DNA of 64,000 nucleotides from Asticcacaulis excentricus. Lineage in GTDB: Bacteria; Pseudomonadota; Alphaproteobacteria; Caulobacterales; Caulobacteraceae. The translations under genes and the position numbers were made by a program. The DNA is taken from contig NZ_AP018827.1 in the NCBI RefSeq assembly GCF_003966695.1, positions 434,001 through 498,000 on the forward strand, written 5' to 3'. The notes under the pieces were generated by a model that saw only the letters and a program-made list of their open reading frames with translations, searched no databases and was not told where the DNA came from. Below are positions 22,228 to 53,349 of this stretch, piece after piece; positions within the stretch are counted from its first letter, which is position 1; every line of letters begins with the position of its first letter.

Positions 22228-22332
22228 CTCTCATCTGTCGGAAGCGCACTTCCGCAGGAGTTGGCACCATTCCGAAGGTTCGGCGGTTGCCCCAGCGTCG
22301 TCGGGCCTGTCCCTCGGCTGGTCTCGATGAGT
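22228..22332 (-). promoter_or_regulatory. SAM-I (S-box) type riboswitch upstream of metX
   Basis: Read on the minus strand: closing stem CTCAT/ATGAG at 22331 and near 22230, then GAGACCAGCCGAGGGAC, AGGCCC, GGGGCAACC, AATGGTGCCAACTCC and ACAGATGAGAG, the conserved S-box core in order. A hairpin TGGTCC/GGACCA (22158-22190) lies between aptamer and start and could be the expression platform. SAM binding would switch off metX-metB. Confidence 0.9.
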
Positions 22333-22451
22333 TATGTGCGCTTATGCGCCGAAGCCGGCTTTGTCGTCAAGAGGGGGATGGAGATGAGGCGTATCGCATA
22401 AGACGCGCATAAACAGGTCATCCGGTTGCGACCTTCGTGCGTAGTGACGTT

Positions 22452-37810: not shown

Positions 37811-37886
37811 GCCTGGATAGCTCAGTTGGTAGAGCAGCGGATTGAAAATCCGCGTGTCGCTGGTTCGATTCCGGCTCCAGGCACCA
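37811..37886 (+). tRNA. tRNA-Phe (GAA anticodon), CCA encoded
   Basis: GCCTGGA acceptor, D arm GCTC/GAGC, anticodon loop TTGAAAA, T arm and TCCAGGC followed by ACCA. The prophage integrase ends 118 bases downstream, so its 3' end is the likely attachment site. Confidence 0.96.
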
Positions 37887-37963
37887 TCTACTCTCTAAAA
37901 TCTCTTATCTGTTCAACGGTTTGCGAGCCATCCGGCGAAACCTTATTGGAACAAAAGTGGTTC

Positions 37964-38003: not shown

Positions 38004-39398
38004 TTAGCCAAGGGTTCCGTGGTAAACGTCCAGCTTTGCCGCCGCGCGGTCGGCAATGGTTCGGGTGATCTTCCCGTAGTGTTTTTCGATGACCTTCTGA
38101 ATGTGCGTCAGGCTATGCTGGGTGCGGCTGGCGATTTCCGGAAAGTCCAGACCCGCCTCCCACATGATCGTGATTGCCGTGTCGCGGAAGTCCTGAAACG
38201 TCTTCGTTGTGTCCCATGTCCAGTTCACCGAGTTGCGGATGTCGATGAATGTGTGCCGGAAATACTGACTTGACCATTGGTTGCCCACGGCGGAGCGGGC
38301 GTTATGGCCTTCGCGCTGATCCACGCGGATGACATAGTCCGACTGCATTTCAAAGATGTTGCCGCCCAACTGCGCATAGTGCGCCCGGATGCGCGCGATC
38401 AGGTCGCGTCCGTTGGCCGTCAGGGTGGTTTCGGTTTTGATCCCTGTCTTTTTGCGGGTGTTCAAAACGCGACCGTTGCGGATTTGCGACCATTTCAGGT
38501 TCAGGATGTCGGTTTGTGACCACGACAATTCCAGCGCCAGTTCGACGGCAAAGGCCACCGAATGCCAGCCGGAGCGGTGACACGCCTCAAGAAGGGCGGC
38601 AATCTCTTCGCGCGACCATATGACGATGCGGCCATCGGGTTCGGTGATGTCGATAAGTTCGACGGGGTTTGGCCAGTTGGCCCGCAGCCGCTTACGCACC
38701 CATTCCAGCCACGCGCGGGCGTAGCGCATGATGGCGGCGGCATTGGCGATTTGCGGCTTGCCCGTGCGCTCATTGACCATGCCGGCGAGGATAGAATAGG
38801 CGCGTTCAAGGTTCGACGGTTCCGGGACAATGCCGCGTTTGATGTCGTCCTCTACCTCTTCCGGCGTCTTGGGCAGGACGATCAGGGCTTCGATCGGCAG
38901 GGCCCGGACCTCAGCCATAGCGTGCCGGTAGCGCGTGAGGGCGCGGGTATAGGCGCGGCGGGGCAGACCGGCGCGTTGTGGTTCGCCGGAATGCAGCCCG
39001 CCGAAGATTTCAAACAGGCGCTTAAGCCGTTGCCGGATGTCCTTTTGCGTGTTCGGCTCCTTCGTCGTGAAGGCGGGCGAAGCGATATAGGCGTCCAGCA
39101 ATGCGCCCAGCGTGCGCCCGGACAGCACCTCCGGGGCCTTACGCAGGGACAGGGGGGCGACGTGCGCCCACGGCATGCCGTGCAGGCTTTCGCCGCGTTC
39201 CGCCGCCTGGACAAGGGCGTTGATATGTTCGCAGGCGCGCCATGCGTCGGGGAGGCTGAGGTGTTTGCCCGTGTCCGGGTCTTTGAGCGTCAGGGCCGTC
39301 CAGCCCTGCGCCCGGCGGGTTTTTGAGGGTATCCAGCGCCAGATATGCGCTGCGTCCCCCTGTTGCAGGCCCGTAGGGGCCTGTGGGGCTTTGCTCAT
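38004..39398 (-). CDS. int: Divergent tyrosine recombinase integrase
   Basis: 464 residues. N-terminal arm/core-binding part (residues about 90-240) and a C-terminal catalytic domain. FQDFRDTA (box with Arg-II), RTQHSLTHI (His/Trp) and EKHYG (nucleophile Tyr) are clear. However, the box that should hold Arg-I reads LSWSQTDILNLKW where relatives have GQRQSDIL, so Arg is replaced by Ser, and the HxxR His is Gln. The assignment as integrase is firm by position and the tail motifs. It probably integrates into tRNA-Phe. Confidence 0.88.
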   Translation of the reverse strand: MSKAPQAPTGLQQGDAAHIWRWIPSKTRRAQGWTALTLKDPDTGKHLSLPDAWRACEHINALVQAAERGESLHGMPWAHVAPLSLRKAPEVLSGRTLGALLDAYIASPAFTTKEPNTQKDIRQRLKRLFEIFGGLHSGEPQRAGLPRRAYTRALTRYRHAMAEVRALPIEALIVLPKTPEEVEDDIKRGIVPEPSNLERAYSILAGMVNERTGKPQIANAAAIMRYARAWLEWVRKRLRANWPNPVELIDITEPDGRIVIWSREEIAALLEACHRSGWHSVAFAVELALELSWSQTDILNLKWSQIRNGRVLNTRKKTGIKTETTLTANGRDLIARIRAHYAQLGGNIFEMQSDYVIRVDQREGHNARSAVGNQWSSQYFRHTFIDIRNSVNWTWDTTKTFQDFRDTAITIMWEAGLDFPEIASRTQHSLTHIQKVIEKHYGKITRTIADRAAAKLDVYHGTLG

Positions 39399-39592: not shown

Positions 39593-39777
39593 ATGCTACC
39601 CCTCATTAAGAATGGGATCACAAAAGCACGGGTGAAAAATACACGCATCGCAACTCTATTCACAGGGTAGCACTCGCTTAGCGAGTGAGTCCCGGCGGTT
39701 GTATTTGTTTGAAGTGCTACGCTAAACAGTTTAGCCGCGCGGCGCGGGGGATCGGCGGCGGGTAGTCGGCTGGGCAT
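39580..39777 (-). CDS. Possible 65-codon leader ORF after RNA element A
   Basis: Starts at the ATG placed right after AAGGAAACGAGCC, directly behind the structured element, and ends 13 bases inside the next gene. The protein is Arg/Pro-rich at first and has no recognised domain. It passes over two hairpins, so it may be a regulatory leader rather than a protein gene. Confidence 0.35.
   Translation of the reverse strand: MPSRLPAADPPRRAAKLFSVALQTNTTAGTHSLSECYPVNRVAMRVFFTRAFVIPFLMRGSICTV
39667..39735 (-). promoter_or_regulatory. Hairpins with competing pairings in the leader of the int operon
   Basis: GCTAAAC-A-GTTTAGC (39721-39735), CACTCGC-TTA-GCGAGTG (39671-39687), and an 8-bp pairing GTAGCACT (39667-39674) with AGTGCTAC (39713-39720). 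The last two share bases, so they exclude each other, as in attenuators. Confidence 0.55.
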
Positions 39778-39788
39778 GGCTCGTTTCC

Positions 39789-39892
39789 TTCTCAGGGGCA
39801 CCTTTGGTGGCCGGAGGCTGAGAACACGACGAGAGGCGTGCACGCGCGCCTTTAGGCTGACGCCATTGGACATAGCGCGCGTACTCCGGCCA
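39789..39892 (-). promoter_or_regulatory. Structured RNA element A, pseudoknot
   Basis: RNA read 39892 to 39789. Stems: P1 39884-39892 with 39808-39816 (9 bp, perfect); P2 39875-39882 with 39842-39849 (8 bp); P3 39862-39864 with 39855-39857; P4 39837-39840 with 39825-39828; P5 39818-39824 with 39789-39795, which crosses P1 as a pseudoknot. UAUGUCCAA and AAAGG in the P2/P3 loop are conserved with element B. AAGGAA for an ATG at 39777 follows P5. Confidence 0.75.
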
Positions 39893-40026
39893 TAGGTAGG
39901 GAAACGGGTGGTTTCGTCACCTCAGGCCGCTCTCGTCATGTCGGGTTCTCAGGCCCGGTAACGAGAGGGTTGCGCCGTTTCGGTTTCAATGTCAAGTTGC
40001 TATCTCGCTTTTAAGGGGAGTTGGGA

Positions 40027-40407
40027 GTGCGGCCAATTGTAATTGCGGCGGTTTTGATCATGCTGGCAGGACCCGCAAACGCTCAAGGTTTGCTAAAATG
40101 TGCTTTCGCCCCCTGTAATGCTGACGAAATGACAGAAAGGGCTTCTGCATTTTTGCCTCGTATGGATGACCCTAAGTTTGTGGAGCTTTTTCCTCAGGCT
40201 GTATCGGACTATGAACGTGTCCTTAGAGCCGATAATTGGTCTAATAAGGACATCGCAAACGCCCTTAGGTATGTGGCCTATAACTACCAACAGGCTTTAA
40301 AGGATAGGCGTATGAACGTTCAAGGTTTCACCGCGGAAACCGCTAAAGGGGCCATTGCCGTATTGTCGGCCCGCGCAGATTGGCTTGATCCTTCAAATGA
40401 CCGATAA
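40027..40407 (+). CDS. Small exported protein in prophage
   Basis: 126 residues from the GTG at 40027 (AAGGGGAG upstream; a TTG two codons earlier is possible). Signal peptide MRPIVIAAVLIMLAGPANAQ, then two Cys near the mature start (KCAFAPC) and a helical body. It reads against its neighbours, is less GC-rich than they are, and may be a lysogeny cargo gene. No family recognised. Confidence 0.7.
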   Translation: MRPIVIAAVLIMLAGPANAQGLLKCAFAPCNADEMTERASAFLPRMDDPKFVELFPQAVSDYERVLRADNWSNKDIANALRYVAYNYQQALKDRRMNVQGFTAETAKGAIAVLSARADWLDPSNDR

Positions 40408-43104: not shown

Positions 43105-43202
43105 GTGAGGGGGTTCCTAAGTGGCCCCGCCCGTGACAGGCGGGACGTGGGCCGGGTTATCCACAGACCCTTTTTGCGAGGGGTGGGTGGTCGGGGGCTA
43201 AA

Positions 43203-43451
43203 TCAGCCATCGCCAGAGCCAGAGCCAGAGCCAGAGCCATAGCCATCGCCATAGCCATCGCCATAGCCATCGCCATAGCCATCGCCAGAGCCATAGCCAG
43301 AGCCATAGCCAGAGCCATCGCCATCGCCATCGCCAGAGCCAGAGCCATAGCCAGAGCCATAGCCAGAGCCATAGCCAGAGCCATCGCTATGGCCAAGGCC
43401 ATGCTCGGCACTGGCTGCGCCTTCGGCGCGCAGATCAACGAGCTTCGGCAA
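43203..43451 (-). CDS. Gly-X repeat protein (X = Asp, Ser or Tyr)
   Basis: 82 residues: a normal 24-residue start (MPKLVDLRAEGAASAEHGLG), then almost nothing but Gly alternating with Asp, Ser or Tyr. The start overlaps the gene above by 17 bases, so it is translated in the same operon. It may be a flexible, sticky low-complexity protein. Functional meaning unknown. Confidence 0.65.
   Translation of the reverse strand: MPKLVDLRAEGAASAEHGLGHSDGSGYGSGYGSGYGSGSGDGDGDGSGYGSGYGSGDGYGDGYGDGYGDGYGSGSGSGSGDG
43207..43386. repeat. 30 tandem hexanucleotides
   Basis: 180 bases made of CCATCG, CCAGAG and CCATAG in mixed order. On the minus strand each gives Gly plus Asp (GAT), Ser (TCT) or Tyr (TAT). 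In-frame copy-number change is expected by slippage. Confidence 0.9.
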
Positions 43452-43740
43452 CGGGAGCCTCCTTGATCGAGGTGGCGGCTTCGTCCGTCAGCGGCAGGAT
43501 TTCGCACACGCCCAAGACGATGTGTTCCGCGACCTCCGGCGCGATCTTCGAGTCGCGTTGGTCGATACCGAAGTTACAGACGCCCGACAGGCTGATCGAC
43601 TTCGCGGCCTTCCAGTACCAAAGGCGGCGCGCCCCGGTCAGTTGCACCGTGTCGCCTTCAACCGAAGCTAGCGTGCCGTAGTGCACGCCGGATTGGCCAG
43701 AGCGGACGAGAACGGGTTTGCCGATGAAATTGGTGAACAT
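43435..43740 (-). CDS. DUF6948-like phage protein
   Basis: 101 residues. GKPVLVRSGQSGVHYGTLASVEGDTVQLTGARRLWYWKAAKSISLSGV fits the small beta-barrel of DUF6948-type phage proteins. AAGGA precedes the ATG. Next to the Gly-X gene, a pairing I recall from other phages. Function unknown. Confidence 0.7.
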   Translation of the reverse strand: MFTNFIGKPVLVRSGQSGVHYGTLASVEGDTVQLTGARRLWYWKAAKSISLSGVCNFGIDQRDSKIAPEVAEHIVLGVCEILPLTDEAATSIKEAPVAEAR

Positions 43741-44930: not shown

Positions 44931-44963
44931 TGTCAACGCGATTTCGTTGACATGACGTTGTCA
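44931..44963 (-). promoter_or_regulatory. Left operator/promoter of prophage
   Basis: TGTCAACG-CGATTT-CGTTGACA (44931-44952) is an inverted repeat, with a third TGTCA half-site at 44959-44963. On the minus strand TTGACA (44936-44931) is 17 bases before TTAATC, a likely -35/-10 pair. The same half-sites occur at 45590-45604. Confidence 0.75.
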
Positions 44964-45521
44964 GCGGTCGCCGCGAAGTGCAATTCTGGCGACAAAATCA
45001 ACCTGATCCGATTGAACCAATTCGGTTTTATCAGGGTTCAAGACCGCGAAAAAATATGTCTGATCTTTCTGAGATACAAAGCGTCGTAGCCTAATTTCCC
45101 CAGATTTTAACCGGACGACGCATCCTTCCATTGGCTTTGGGCGGCGCGTTTTGTCGAAGAAAACCAATTCGCCTTGTTCGGCATACGGTGACATTTCACT
45201 GTTTTCGGCGCGGAATGGCGTCAAATCTTCTGGGAAGCCATCATGCCAGGTGGGGCCTGATAGAGAAAACGTTGTGCCCTGAAATTCAGCAACTCGCTTT
45301 GCTTCGCTGTAAAATTGCTCATCTGTGAATTCCAGATAAGCTAATATGCGAAGTAAATTATCTAATGGAATGTCGCTTTTCCCAAGTTCCCACTTGGAAA
45401 CAACCTGACGGGTAACCGTCAAAAGTCTGGCTATCTCTTCAAGAGATTTGTTGCGGCTGTGGCGAAGATTGCGCAACACTTGGCCGCGAATATGGCGGGG
45501 GATTTGGTCATAGGTCTGCAT
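44961..45521 (-). CDS. CI-like repressor with S24-type C-terminus lacking catalytic Lys
   Basis: 186 residues from MQTYDQIPRHIRGQVLRNLRH. HTH: NKSLEEIARLLTVTRQVVSKWELGKSD. The C-terminal half has the S24 fold pattern (SPYAEQGELVFFD, EGCVVRLKSGEIRLRRF). The catalytic Lys of LexA/CI (FKKL or VKRL) is RRF here and the SM motif is altered, so self-cleavage is doubtful. The start at 45521 is preferred because an upstream ATG lies at the operator. Confidence 0.82.
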   Translation of the reverse strand: MQTYDQIPRHIRGQVLRNLRHSRNKSLEEIARLLTVTRQVVSKWELGKSDIPLDNLLRILAYLEFTDEQFYSEAKRVAEFQGTTFSLSGPTWHDGFPEDLTPFRAENSEMSPYAEQGELVFFDKTRRPKPMEGCVVRLKSGEIRLRRFVSQKDQTYFFAVLNPDKTELVQSDQVDFVARIALRGDR

Positions 45522-45589
45522 AACCGCAGGGTGAATGTACCCGGCGACAGTGGCAAACGCTGTGTTCAAACTTTTGTGAACGAACATGC

Positions 45590-51740: not shown

Positions 51741-51752
51741 TTGTGTTGTTCC

Positions 51753-51856
51753 TTTCGAAGGGAAGATCTGGTGACCGGAGCTTCGAAACACGCAACACAG
51801 ACGTGCGCTCATGCCTTTGGGGTTTCCCCTTGGACATAGCATAAGCACTCCGGTCA
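51753..51856 (-). promoter_or_regulatory. Structured RNA element B, pseudoknot
   Basis: RNA read 51856 to 51753. P1 51848-51856 with 51772-51780 (9 bp); P2 51839-51846 with 51807-51814 (8 bp, one G-U); P3 GGGG/CCCC (51119+700: 51819-51822 with 51826-51829); P4 51802-51805 with 51789-51792; P5 51781-51788 with 51753-51760 (8 bp), crossing P1. Same layout as element A with base changes on both sides of stems. The Shine-Dalgarno AAAGGAA starts inside P5. Confidence 0.75.
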
Positions 51857-52527
51857 TAGGATAAGATGGTCATAACGCTGCCATTGTCGTGTGTTTGGCT
51901 TTCGAAGGCCGTGCGCGGACCTTGCATGTATAAGTCGGTGATGTCAAGACCAACTGTGTGCAAGCAGTCCTGATCTCTTTATTGCCCGACAAACTCATCG
52001 GCGCAGCGTAACGCCTTATGAAATAAGGCGGAGCGCGGTGCGCGCCGATGTCCGCTTGATCGTCACAGACGCGCCCGGACCCGTCTGTCAGGCCCGACGC
52101 GGCAGGCCTGCGGCGCGTAGCGCCATAGCGGGCCGGTGCGCCGCGTCTCCGCATATCCCAGCCGTTGCCCCAAACCCGGACCCGTCCACGCAGCGCTAAT
52201 CGTCAGCCCATACCCATACCCTCACCCCATGACTTTCAAAAAAGGTCTAATACGGCGCACTACAGAGTGCTTGTATTGGCCAAATCCTTATAAATTCAGG
52301 GTTTCCGAAGCTAATACGCCTAATACGCGCAAACGGAATTGCGTGCCTATGTAAAGGCATCATGTGCGCGCCCATGTATGCACGTATATATAAATATACG
52401 TATTAGATGTATTAGATGTATTAGAGAGCTTAAGCCTCAGAAAATGCGGAAAAAATGGTAATACAGGGCGAAATGTGCCATTGTATTAACCGTATTGAGC
52501 CGTTTTGATTAAAAAAAGGGGCGAATA
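51857..52527. other. 670-bp non-coding gap, likely replication origin or regulatory region
   Basis: No convincing gene. It holds a hairpin (CGCCTTAT-GAA-ATAAGGCG, 52012-52030), a GC-rich stretch with several inverted repeats (52070-52150), then an AT-rich part with 9-bp iterons (52248-52497) and a 20-bp palindrome (ACGTATAT-ATAA-ATATACGT, 52382-52401). Confidence 0.6.
52248..52497. repeat. TAATAC/GTATTA 9-bp iterons
   Basis: TAATAC at 52248, 52312, 52321 and 52459; its complement GTATTA at 52400, 52409, 52418 and 52483, with GTATTG variants at 52273 and 52492. Neighbouring copies are exactly 9 bp apart (52312/52321, 52400/52409/52418, 52483/52492). Confidence 0.8.
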
Positions 52528-53124
52528 ATGGAAAGCCTGTTCCCCATGGGTCTCGTGCCCCCCTCCGGCAGCGCCGAAAAAAAACGCGGTCGGCCAAAAG
52601 GCGCGCGGAACAAGGCGGGGGGCGATCTGGCGAAGTGGTTTGCCAGCCAGACCGGCACGACGCCGGGGCAGCAGCTCATTGAGCTGGTCGCGGTCACGCC
52701 GAGGGATATTCGTCTGGCGAAGGCATGGGCTAAGGACTCGAAAAACCAAGTCTTTTCAGCGGTCGGCGCTGATCCGCGCGCCTTCGCGCCGCGCGTCCTA
52801 GCTATGATCTATAAGGCCGATCAGTTCGCCAAGGTCCACCGCTGCACCTTGGGCGAGGCATGGTCGATGATTTTTCGGGGTATCGACATGCTCTTGCCGT
52901 ATTGCCACCAGAAGCAGGGCAGCGCCGAGGCCGAAAAGCCTGACCTGCGGCCCGTGCTGTTCGTGGATGGTGGCGCGCTGGGCCAGCATGGCAACCCAAG
53001 CCAAAGCCTTGATAATCAACAAGATTTGCTATTCGGTCCGATGCCGGTCACAGATGGGGGGTCACAGATACCCCCTGAAACCGTTGCGCGGCAAGGCTTT
53101 GCGGCGTCTGGCGAACAGGATTGA
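52528..53124 (+). CDS. Terminase small subunit-like protein
   Basis: 198 residues. Starts with an AT-hook-like KKRGRPKGARNK at residue 19, then a helical DNA-binding-like region (PRDIRLAKAWAKDSKNQVFSAV). Its position just before TerL and its size fit a small terminase, but homology is not evident by eye. AGGGGCG precedes the ATG. Confidence 0.55.
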   Translation: MESLFPMGLVPPSGSAEKKRGRPKGARNKAGGDLAKWFASQTGTTPGQQLIELVAVTPRDIRLAKAWAKDSKNQVFSAVGADPRAFAPRVLAMIYKADQFAKVHRCTLGEAWSMIFRGIDMLLPYCHQKQGSAEAEKPDLRPVLFVDGGALGQHGNPSQSLDNQQDLLFGPMPVTDGGSQIPPETVARQGFAASGEQD

Positions 53125-53139
53125 CAATCCGTTGACCTT

Positions 53140-53165
53140 GGCCGGGGGATCGGTGACCCCCGGCC
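53140..53165. repeat. GC-rich inverted repeat between TerS-like and TerL
   Basis: GGCCGGGGG and its complement CCCCCGGCC around 8 bases, within a 225-bp gap rich in runs of C. Could be a terminator or part of a packaging site. Confidence 0.55.
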
Positions 53166-53349
53166 CCCCTCGACCCCCCACCCCCCAATTTGACCCCCGG
53201 CCCGTCTTCAGAGTGGGGCGCGGGCTCCGCCCGATATTGGAAAAATTTAAAAAGCCCTGCGGGCGACCCCTTGGGTCCCTTTCGGCCCCCTGCCTCTGAC
53301 CGTGTGACACTGGCCAAAGTTTCCACCGTCGTACAGGGTCGGGGTTCGG

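Follow-up and report, generated by a model that had tools for sequence, protein, structure and literature searches.

The locus and its genes

In the stretch of Asticcacaulis excentricus DNA analysed here (64,000 nt, the window) a tyrosine integrase gene adjoins tRNA-Phe, and a 49-bp repeat found at 37839 and again, past the end of the window, at 77213 bounds a prophage of about 39 kb. Within this prophage lie a CI-like repressor gene (44961-45587), primase-type genes, a head-tail adaptor and, on the minus strand, two segments whose RNAs can be folded into the same architecture, element A (39892-39789) and element B (51856-51753); their parts and neighbours are collected in Table 1. The prophage also contains, at 43157-43507, low-complexity tandem codons that read as Ala-Met in one frame and as Gly-Asp/Gly-Tyr/Gly-Ser in another.

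Element A stands, as a sequence-only reading of this DNA had proposed, ahead of an integrase operon; the integrase is the last gene, and two short ORFs come between them. Upstream of its chosen start the frame of ORF1 meets no stop as far as an ATG within the RNA (39873), and its stop lies beyond the start of ORF2. Behind B come two ORFs, and the frame of the first likewise has no stop as far as an ATG at 51857. Relatives of these genes are scarce: ORF2 found its own match alone in 149 genomes of the family, the integrase found one relative (33% identical) in one other of 60 family genomes and none that was confirmed in viral contigs, the 75-aa ORF of B has no match outside the window among 150 genomes of the order, and the 128-aa protein of B found no relatives in viral contigs. 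No similarity is seen when ORF2 of A is compared with the 75-aa ORF of B. No antirepressor or icd/ant-type genes lie behind A or B, where there are ORFs without a family and the integrase, and no sigma-70-like promoter is found in the A region from 39700 to 40100.

Table 1. Features of elements A and B, their target sites and their surroundings; "swapped" gives the share of other loci whose flanks match as well
Feature	Position	Strand	Remarks
Left attachment repeat	37839..37887	+	49 bp, 3' part of tRNA-Phe; twin starts beyond the window
Tyrosine integrase, last operon gene of A	38004..39398	-	PF00589 E 6.7e-7; phrog_1 integrase E 2.4e-19
A ORF2, 65 aa	39395..39592	-	no known family; overlaps ORF1 and integrase start
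A ORF1, 65 aa	39580..39777	-	ATG just after b2 (chosen start); no Pfam match
A target b2, ACGAG	39780..39784	-	between Shine-Dalgarno and ATG; 5 nt, weak alone; swapped 57%
A target a2, CTGAGAA (P5 3' strand)	39789..39795	-	overlaps AGAAGGAA Shine-Dalgarno region; swapped 1.1%
Element A, probable antisense RNA body	39808..39892	-	RF02221 25.6 bits; model R2 64.4 bits
A stem P1	39892-39884 with 39816-39808	-
A stem P2	39882-39875 with 39849-39842	-
A P3 hairpin		-	
A stem P4, CACG/CGTG	39840-39837 with 39828-39825	-
A crossing helix (P5), TTCTCAG with CTGAGAA	39824-39818 with 39795-39789	-
A b', CTCTCGTC	39828..39835	-	P4 loop; matches b1 over 8 nt, b2 over 5 nt
A a', TTCTCAG	39818..39824	-	junction before P1 3' arm; matches a1 over 8 nt (one further base), a2 over 7 nt
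A upstream target b1, GACGAGAG	39930..39937	-	swapped none
A upstream target a1, CTGAGAAC	39945..39952	-	swapped none
B second ORF, 128 aa	51130..51516	-	no known family; ATGA overlap with first ORF stop
B first ORF, 75 aa	51513..51740	-	no known family; ATG after b2 (chosen start)
B target b2, CAACACA	51742..51748	-	one base 5' of ATG; 7 nt; swapped 11%
B target a2, CTTCGAAA	51753..51760	-	overlaps AAAGGAA Shine-Dalgarno region; 8 nt; swapped 4.4%
Element B, second probable antisense RNA body	51772..51856	-	same prophage as A; RF02221 29.0 bits; model R2 72.9 bits
B a', TTTCGAAG	51781..51788	-
B b', TGTGTTG	51793..51799	-	P4 loop
B upstream target b1, AACACA	51890..51895	-	6 nt, weak; swapped 36%
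B upstream target a1, CTTCGAAA	51900..51907	-	8 nt; swapped 3.3%
Hairpin GGCCGGGGG / CCCCCGGCC	53136-53169		directly 3' of ORF 52528-53124; about 20 bits with R2, via stem only

Structure of the two RNAs

The sequence-only reading had described four stems, P1 to P4, and a crossing stem P5 in both elements, with one-base indels in loops from which it argued against a conserved peptide. A and B can indeed form these stems and the crossing helix, on the minus strand, and the two elements can be aligned end to end with the single-base indels confined to loops. Folded alone, B has P1-P2-P3-P4 as its minimum-energy structure, and A has the pairing of its segments a' and b' with the downstream sites a2 and b2, without P1. 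The crossing stem is one half of a two-site pairing, a'-a2 plus b'-b2; overlooked in the first reading were the pairing of the P4 loop with a downstream site (b'/b2) and the copies of both target sites upstream (a1/b1). As to a peptide conserved across the element, an open frame runs through A and B, yet the conserved ATGTCC stands in different frames relative to the downstream frame in the two, and so a conserved coding role is unlikely.

Family membership

A covariance model, R2, was built from 26 relatives (alignment A3) with A and B left out, and in the window it retrieves B (E 3e-15) and A (E 3.2e-13) as its sole strong matches, the next being a plain hairpin at 20.1 bits. The relatives came from viral and genome contigs searched with a pattern containing the conserved internal loop: 88 pattern loci (one already in the set) were found, 50 passed a P1 filter, 28 were retained after inspection by eye of motif and stems, during which the downstream sequence was visible, and 26 of them were aligned. 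Across these 26, 95.7% of cells are paired, both-side changes occur in 18 of 22 pairs, and the covariation score is 0.669 against 0.168 for shuffled and at most 0.139 for slid alignments, the pairing of P1 and the conservation of the loop being partly built in because pattern, P1 filter and eye selected the relatives; P2 to P4 were not filtered by script. An earlier model, R1, had a poor alignment in which 3 pairs were retained. The proposal of a related pair of RNAs that can form a pseudoknot and carry compensatory changes stands, and further relatives with covariation do exist.

At gathering score Rfam finds in the whole window a SAM riboswitch (RF00162, 85 bits, 22228-22333, minus strand) and two tRNAs and nothing else, so that A and B lack an Rfam match at that threshold. 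In a sensitive scan the top match of both is sRNA-Xcc1 (RF02221; E 0.029 for A and 0.0026 for B), with its consensus structure in register over positions 1-87 in each, the scores of both lying far below the gathering score of 53 bits. A known class is thereby matched over its full length, as a relative and not at gathering score. In the reciprocal direction R2 finds 23 of 32 RF02221 loci at E ≤0.1. Judged by structure, A and B are divergent relatives of sRNA-Xcc1, whose members show the same pairing logic; they differ from it in the internal loop sequence and in not lying in an integron cassette.

R2 has matches in 11 of the 40 family genomes and 16 of the 25 genus genomes scanned, the own genome being included in both counts. 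The own genome holds no third copy, with R2 giving A and B alone at E 0.01 and at 0.001; a pattern match elsewhere in it (G000:C1:512253) was rejected as such a copy, as it shows no P1 when tested by script and by eye sits inside an apparent integrase gene. A plain motif scan of viral contigs gave no convincing element among the matches listed. Across 398 genomes of the phylum, RF02221 matches 67 at E ≤0.05 and 39 pass the cut-off, in a scan with stricter filters that missed the own genome. Paired elements also occur in the genus, where three times a contig carries two of them at a distance of 19-28 kb (G640:C3:383776 and 404285; G649:C175; G649:C5), and those of G640 are perhaps on a plasmid or an integrative element since anti-restriction and methyltransferase genes are nearby.

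Target sites of A and B and of their relatives

In both A and B the complements of a' and b', sites a2 and b2, are found at the next ORF's ribosome-binding site, and a second pair of targets, a1-b1, lies upstream. Match lengths and the share of other loci that match as well are given in Table 1, from which it can be seen that b2 of A and b1 of B are the weak sites. Target sites of A and B cross-match over no more than 4-6 nt, and the two elements have different pairing specificities within one prophage.

The generality of this pairing was assessed in 91 loci, namely A, B, the phage P1 C4 locus as a control (its a' and b' segments assigned by hand) and 88 loci found with RF02221, these being what remained of 117 listed places after 89 were taken and L204 was left out for its short flank. 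The segments of each RNA were compared with the flanks of its own locus and with those of every other locus, and the longest exact match was recorded. Own flanks match for longer at all four sites, with means of 5.49 against 4.44 nt for a'-a2, 6.07 against 4.77 nt for b'-b2, 7.49 against 4.80 nt for a'-a1 and 6.69 against 5.08 nt for b'-b1, and for none of the four did any of 10,000 permutations reach the own mean. Matches of at least 7 nt are found in own flanks at a2 in 29, b2 in 36, a1 in 67 and b1 in 63 of the 91 loci; the corresponding swapped figures are 3.8%, 4.9%, 7.1% and 6.9%. The excess of own over swapped is repeated in 30 loci of the A/B subclass. A measure of RNA duplex energy over 120 nt is less specific than the exact match and is dominated by GC-rich stretches; with the phage P1 segments wrongly assigned in that run, it gives median ranks of 0.33 and 0.42 downstream (weak) and of 0.10 and 0.26 upstream.

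The order of the sites was examined in 117 loci (the 88 from RF02221, 27 found by pattern, A and B) with sites of at least 6 nt. Downstream, 50 of the 117 loci match both of their own sites, compared with 89 of some 3510 swapped pairs, and the order is a-then-b in 48 of those 50 against 52 of the 89. Upstream, both sites are matched in 80 of 117 against 155 of about 3510, the a-then-b order being found in 79 of the 80 and in 94 of the 155. Since b' precedes a' in the RNA and the targets run a then b, the two pairings make one antiparallel interaction. In the 45 loci with b2 of at least 7 nt, this site falls on or beside the Shine-Dalgarno core in 31 (20% for random sites) and has an ATG within 30 nt in 39 (52% for random sites). 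Several relatives have upstream sites only. In L224, L229, L256, L274, L296, L300 and L306, a' and b' fit a1-b1 far better than anything downstream, perhaps reflecting a different mode of action.

Comparison with known systems

The record of phage P1 C4 reads a1, b1, C4 RNA, a2, b2, icd, ant, which is the layout of A and B, and the script used for the exact matches recovers its annotated sites (from the hand-set segments). In the C4 RNAs of phages P1 and P7 (RF01695; c4-a1b1 RF03163) b' likewise occupies the last hairpin loop and a' the position before the P1 3' arm, b2 of phage P1 is also at the ribosome-binding site, and ORF1 of A overlaps ORF2 as icd of phage P1 overlaps ant1. According to PMC5320573, RNase P cuts C4 at the 5' end of stem P1, b' covers the ribosome-binding site and a' gives specificity. 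The marks of such a cut, a start of UAU/G and an ACC after stem P1, are shared by A, B and phage P1 C4, but are not general in the family: of 90 loci, 51 have a T at -1 and 33 an RCC behind P1 (11 and 5 of 27 in the subclass). Unlike A and B, phage P1 C4 has a longer stem P1 and a plain UUCG hairpin in place of P2/P3 and the conserved loop, and A and B differ in turn by having no icd/ant behind them and, in the case of A, by heading an integrase operon.

There is a strong case that A and B work like C4, whereas their assignment to RF01695 does not hold: phage P1 C4 scores 68.8 bits with that model, which matches neither A nor B up to E 10. Fourteen other family loci are also unmatched by the phage P1 C4 model, and R2 has no match to phage P1 C4. 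What ties A and B to phage P1 C4 is their layout and the logic of their pairing, which do not by themselves establish a common origin. In Rfam, sRNA-Xcc1 has no clan and C4 is in CL00128. PMC12189769 lists both in neighbouring Xylella regions, and a search limited to non-subscription papers found no report linking them, which is not a claim that none is in print.

Two further systems bear comparison. The IsrK-orf45-anrP arrangement of the Salmonella prophage Gifsy-1 (RF01394) also has an upstream RNA and a small ORF overlapping an antirepressor gene, with coupled translation, but IsrK, unlike the action proposed for A and B, activates, since on the orf45-anrP mRNA it acts in trans to make the ribosome-binding site free (PMC4825925); no isrK match at gathering score is found in the window. 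The C4-like RNAs of Acinetobacter baumannii, described in PMC5320573, are numerous within a single genome, vary in a' and have a processed 5' end at a GG before P1; they differ in having been assigned to C4 by Rfam search and in that their expression was demonstrated, that of A and B being predicted.

Mechanism and alternative readings

A and B are probably phage antisense RNAs, like the one with which phage P1 silences lysogeny genes, and not new metabolite sensors; that one temperate phage carries both as C4-type antisense RNA modules is considered quite likely. In such a scheme an RNA of about 85-90 nt would be made within the operon leader and cut out at stem P1 by RNase P, to act in trans as well as in cis. 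The P4 loop b' and the junction a' would pair with b2 and a2 in one antiparallel interaction and, these sites flanking or overlapping the ribosome-binding site of the next ORF, the pairing would block its translation, the block extending to the genes behind through overlapping frames (translational coupling) and keeping them off in the lysogen. A would by this route silence ORF1, ORF2 and the integrase, and B the 75-aa and 128-aa ORFs. The upstream a1-b1 may take up the RNA as an anti-antisense decoy and so relieve repression, a role suggested because the a1-b1 region of phage P1 resembles isrK (35.1 bits, below gathering score) and IsrK frees a ribosome-binding site in trans.

The same complementarity could instead operate purely in cis, in a leader whose a'/a2 and b'/b2 pseudoknot hides the ribosome-binding site until a protein, a ribosome or the decoy opens it, with no trans-acting RNA. 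The proximity of a2 and b2 to P1 (at most 30 nt, on the same transcript) fits this, as does the minimum-energy fold of A, which is exactly that pairing. Such a leader gives no place to the second target pair that a' and b' have upstream in most of the loci, and comparable RNAs behave otherwise: integron sRNA-Xcc1 is a real RNA that accumulates free at 88 nt in Xanthomonas, as seen by Northern and RACE (PMC2996969), and phage P1 C4 is active in processed form (PMC5320573). The cis-only leader is accordingly rated as unlikely. At the other extreme the main targets might lie in the host or in other phages, the local matches being remnants or self-control; the title of a 2011 paper does call sRNA-Xcc1 trans-acting, and some relatives retain upstream sites only, but local sites at the Shine-Dalgarno region are far above chance and make this hardly credible.

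The proposal of a new riboswitch class, in which a small ligand held by the P2/P3 internal loop (UAUGUCCAA / AAAGG) would shift P5, is not supported and is now very improbable. The element is indeed located in cis and the loop is common to A, B and the subclass, although its invariance in the subclass is built in because the search pattern required exactly those bases. RF02221 members, which were found independently of that pattern, differ in the loop, where AUACAA / GGGGAAUA is typical, and follow the same pairing logic; UAUGCAA and UAUGUCC forms occur in the genus, so that the loop which the sequence-only reading picked out is real and conserved but not invariant. P5 and the P4 loop co-vary with targets outside the RNA and do not form a fixed core, the target sites stand in antisense order at translation starts, and the genes downstream are phage regulators, SymE and unknowns with no common metabolic pathway.

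The antisense account favoured here gives the conserved loop UAUGUCCAA / AAAGG no role, and this loop is the best remaining lead. It may be tentatively suggested that A and B are antisense immunity RNAs with a built-in sensor, the subclass loop, absent from phage P1 C4, binding a phage or host factor. Were this so, a C4-type switch would respond to a signal, and one phage would run two such switches of different specificity, over an integrase operon and over a gene pair of unknown function.

Genes behind the relatives and wider significance

The antisense account would bring together the C4 immunity RNAs and sRNA-Xcc1, which has been treated in the literature as a virulence-linked sRNA; Rfam has them as separate classes. 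On this view sRNA-Xcc1 acquires a mechanism that can be tested, with symE and phage antirepressors as its local targets, and control of the C4 type would reach alphaproteobacterial phages and, through A, an integrase operon. As specificity sits in two short exchangeable segments, the family may be regarded as a natural set of orthogonal RNA switches.

First ORFs were found behind the RNA in 120 of 129 loci and 105 were scanned, with Pfam matches to Bro-N (11), Rha (7), SymE (6), P22_AR_N (1), KilA-N (1) and ORF6N (1); antirepressor-type first ORFs thus stand behind at most 21 of the 105 relatives, and anti-repressors lead in PHROGs among the best 25 of 75 families. Of the longer downstream ORFs 123 were found and 63 scanned, HTH and sigma-70 domains being commonest among the best 25 of 34 families. 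As no integrase family appears among those 25, the integrase operon of A may be unusual.

The position of sRNA-Xcc1 upstream of symE is described in PMC12444791. Directly behind RNAs of the sRNA-Xcc1 type, SymE-like ORFs were recognised by eye at L010, L030, L175, L182, L189 and L207, and in several SymE loci b2 is at the ribosome-binding site, pointing to a cis-acting antisense control of symE.
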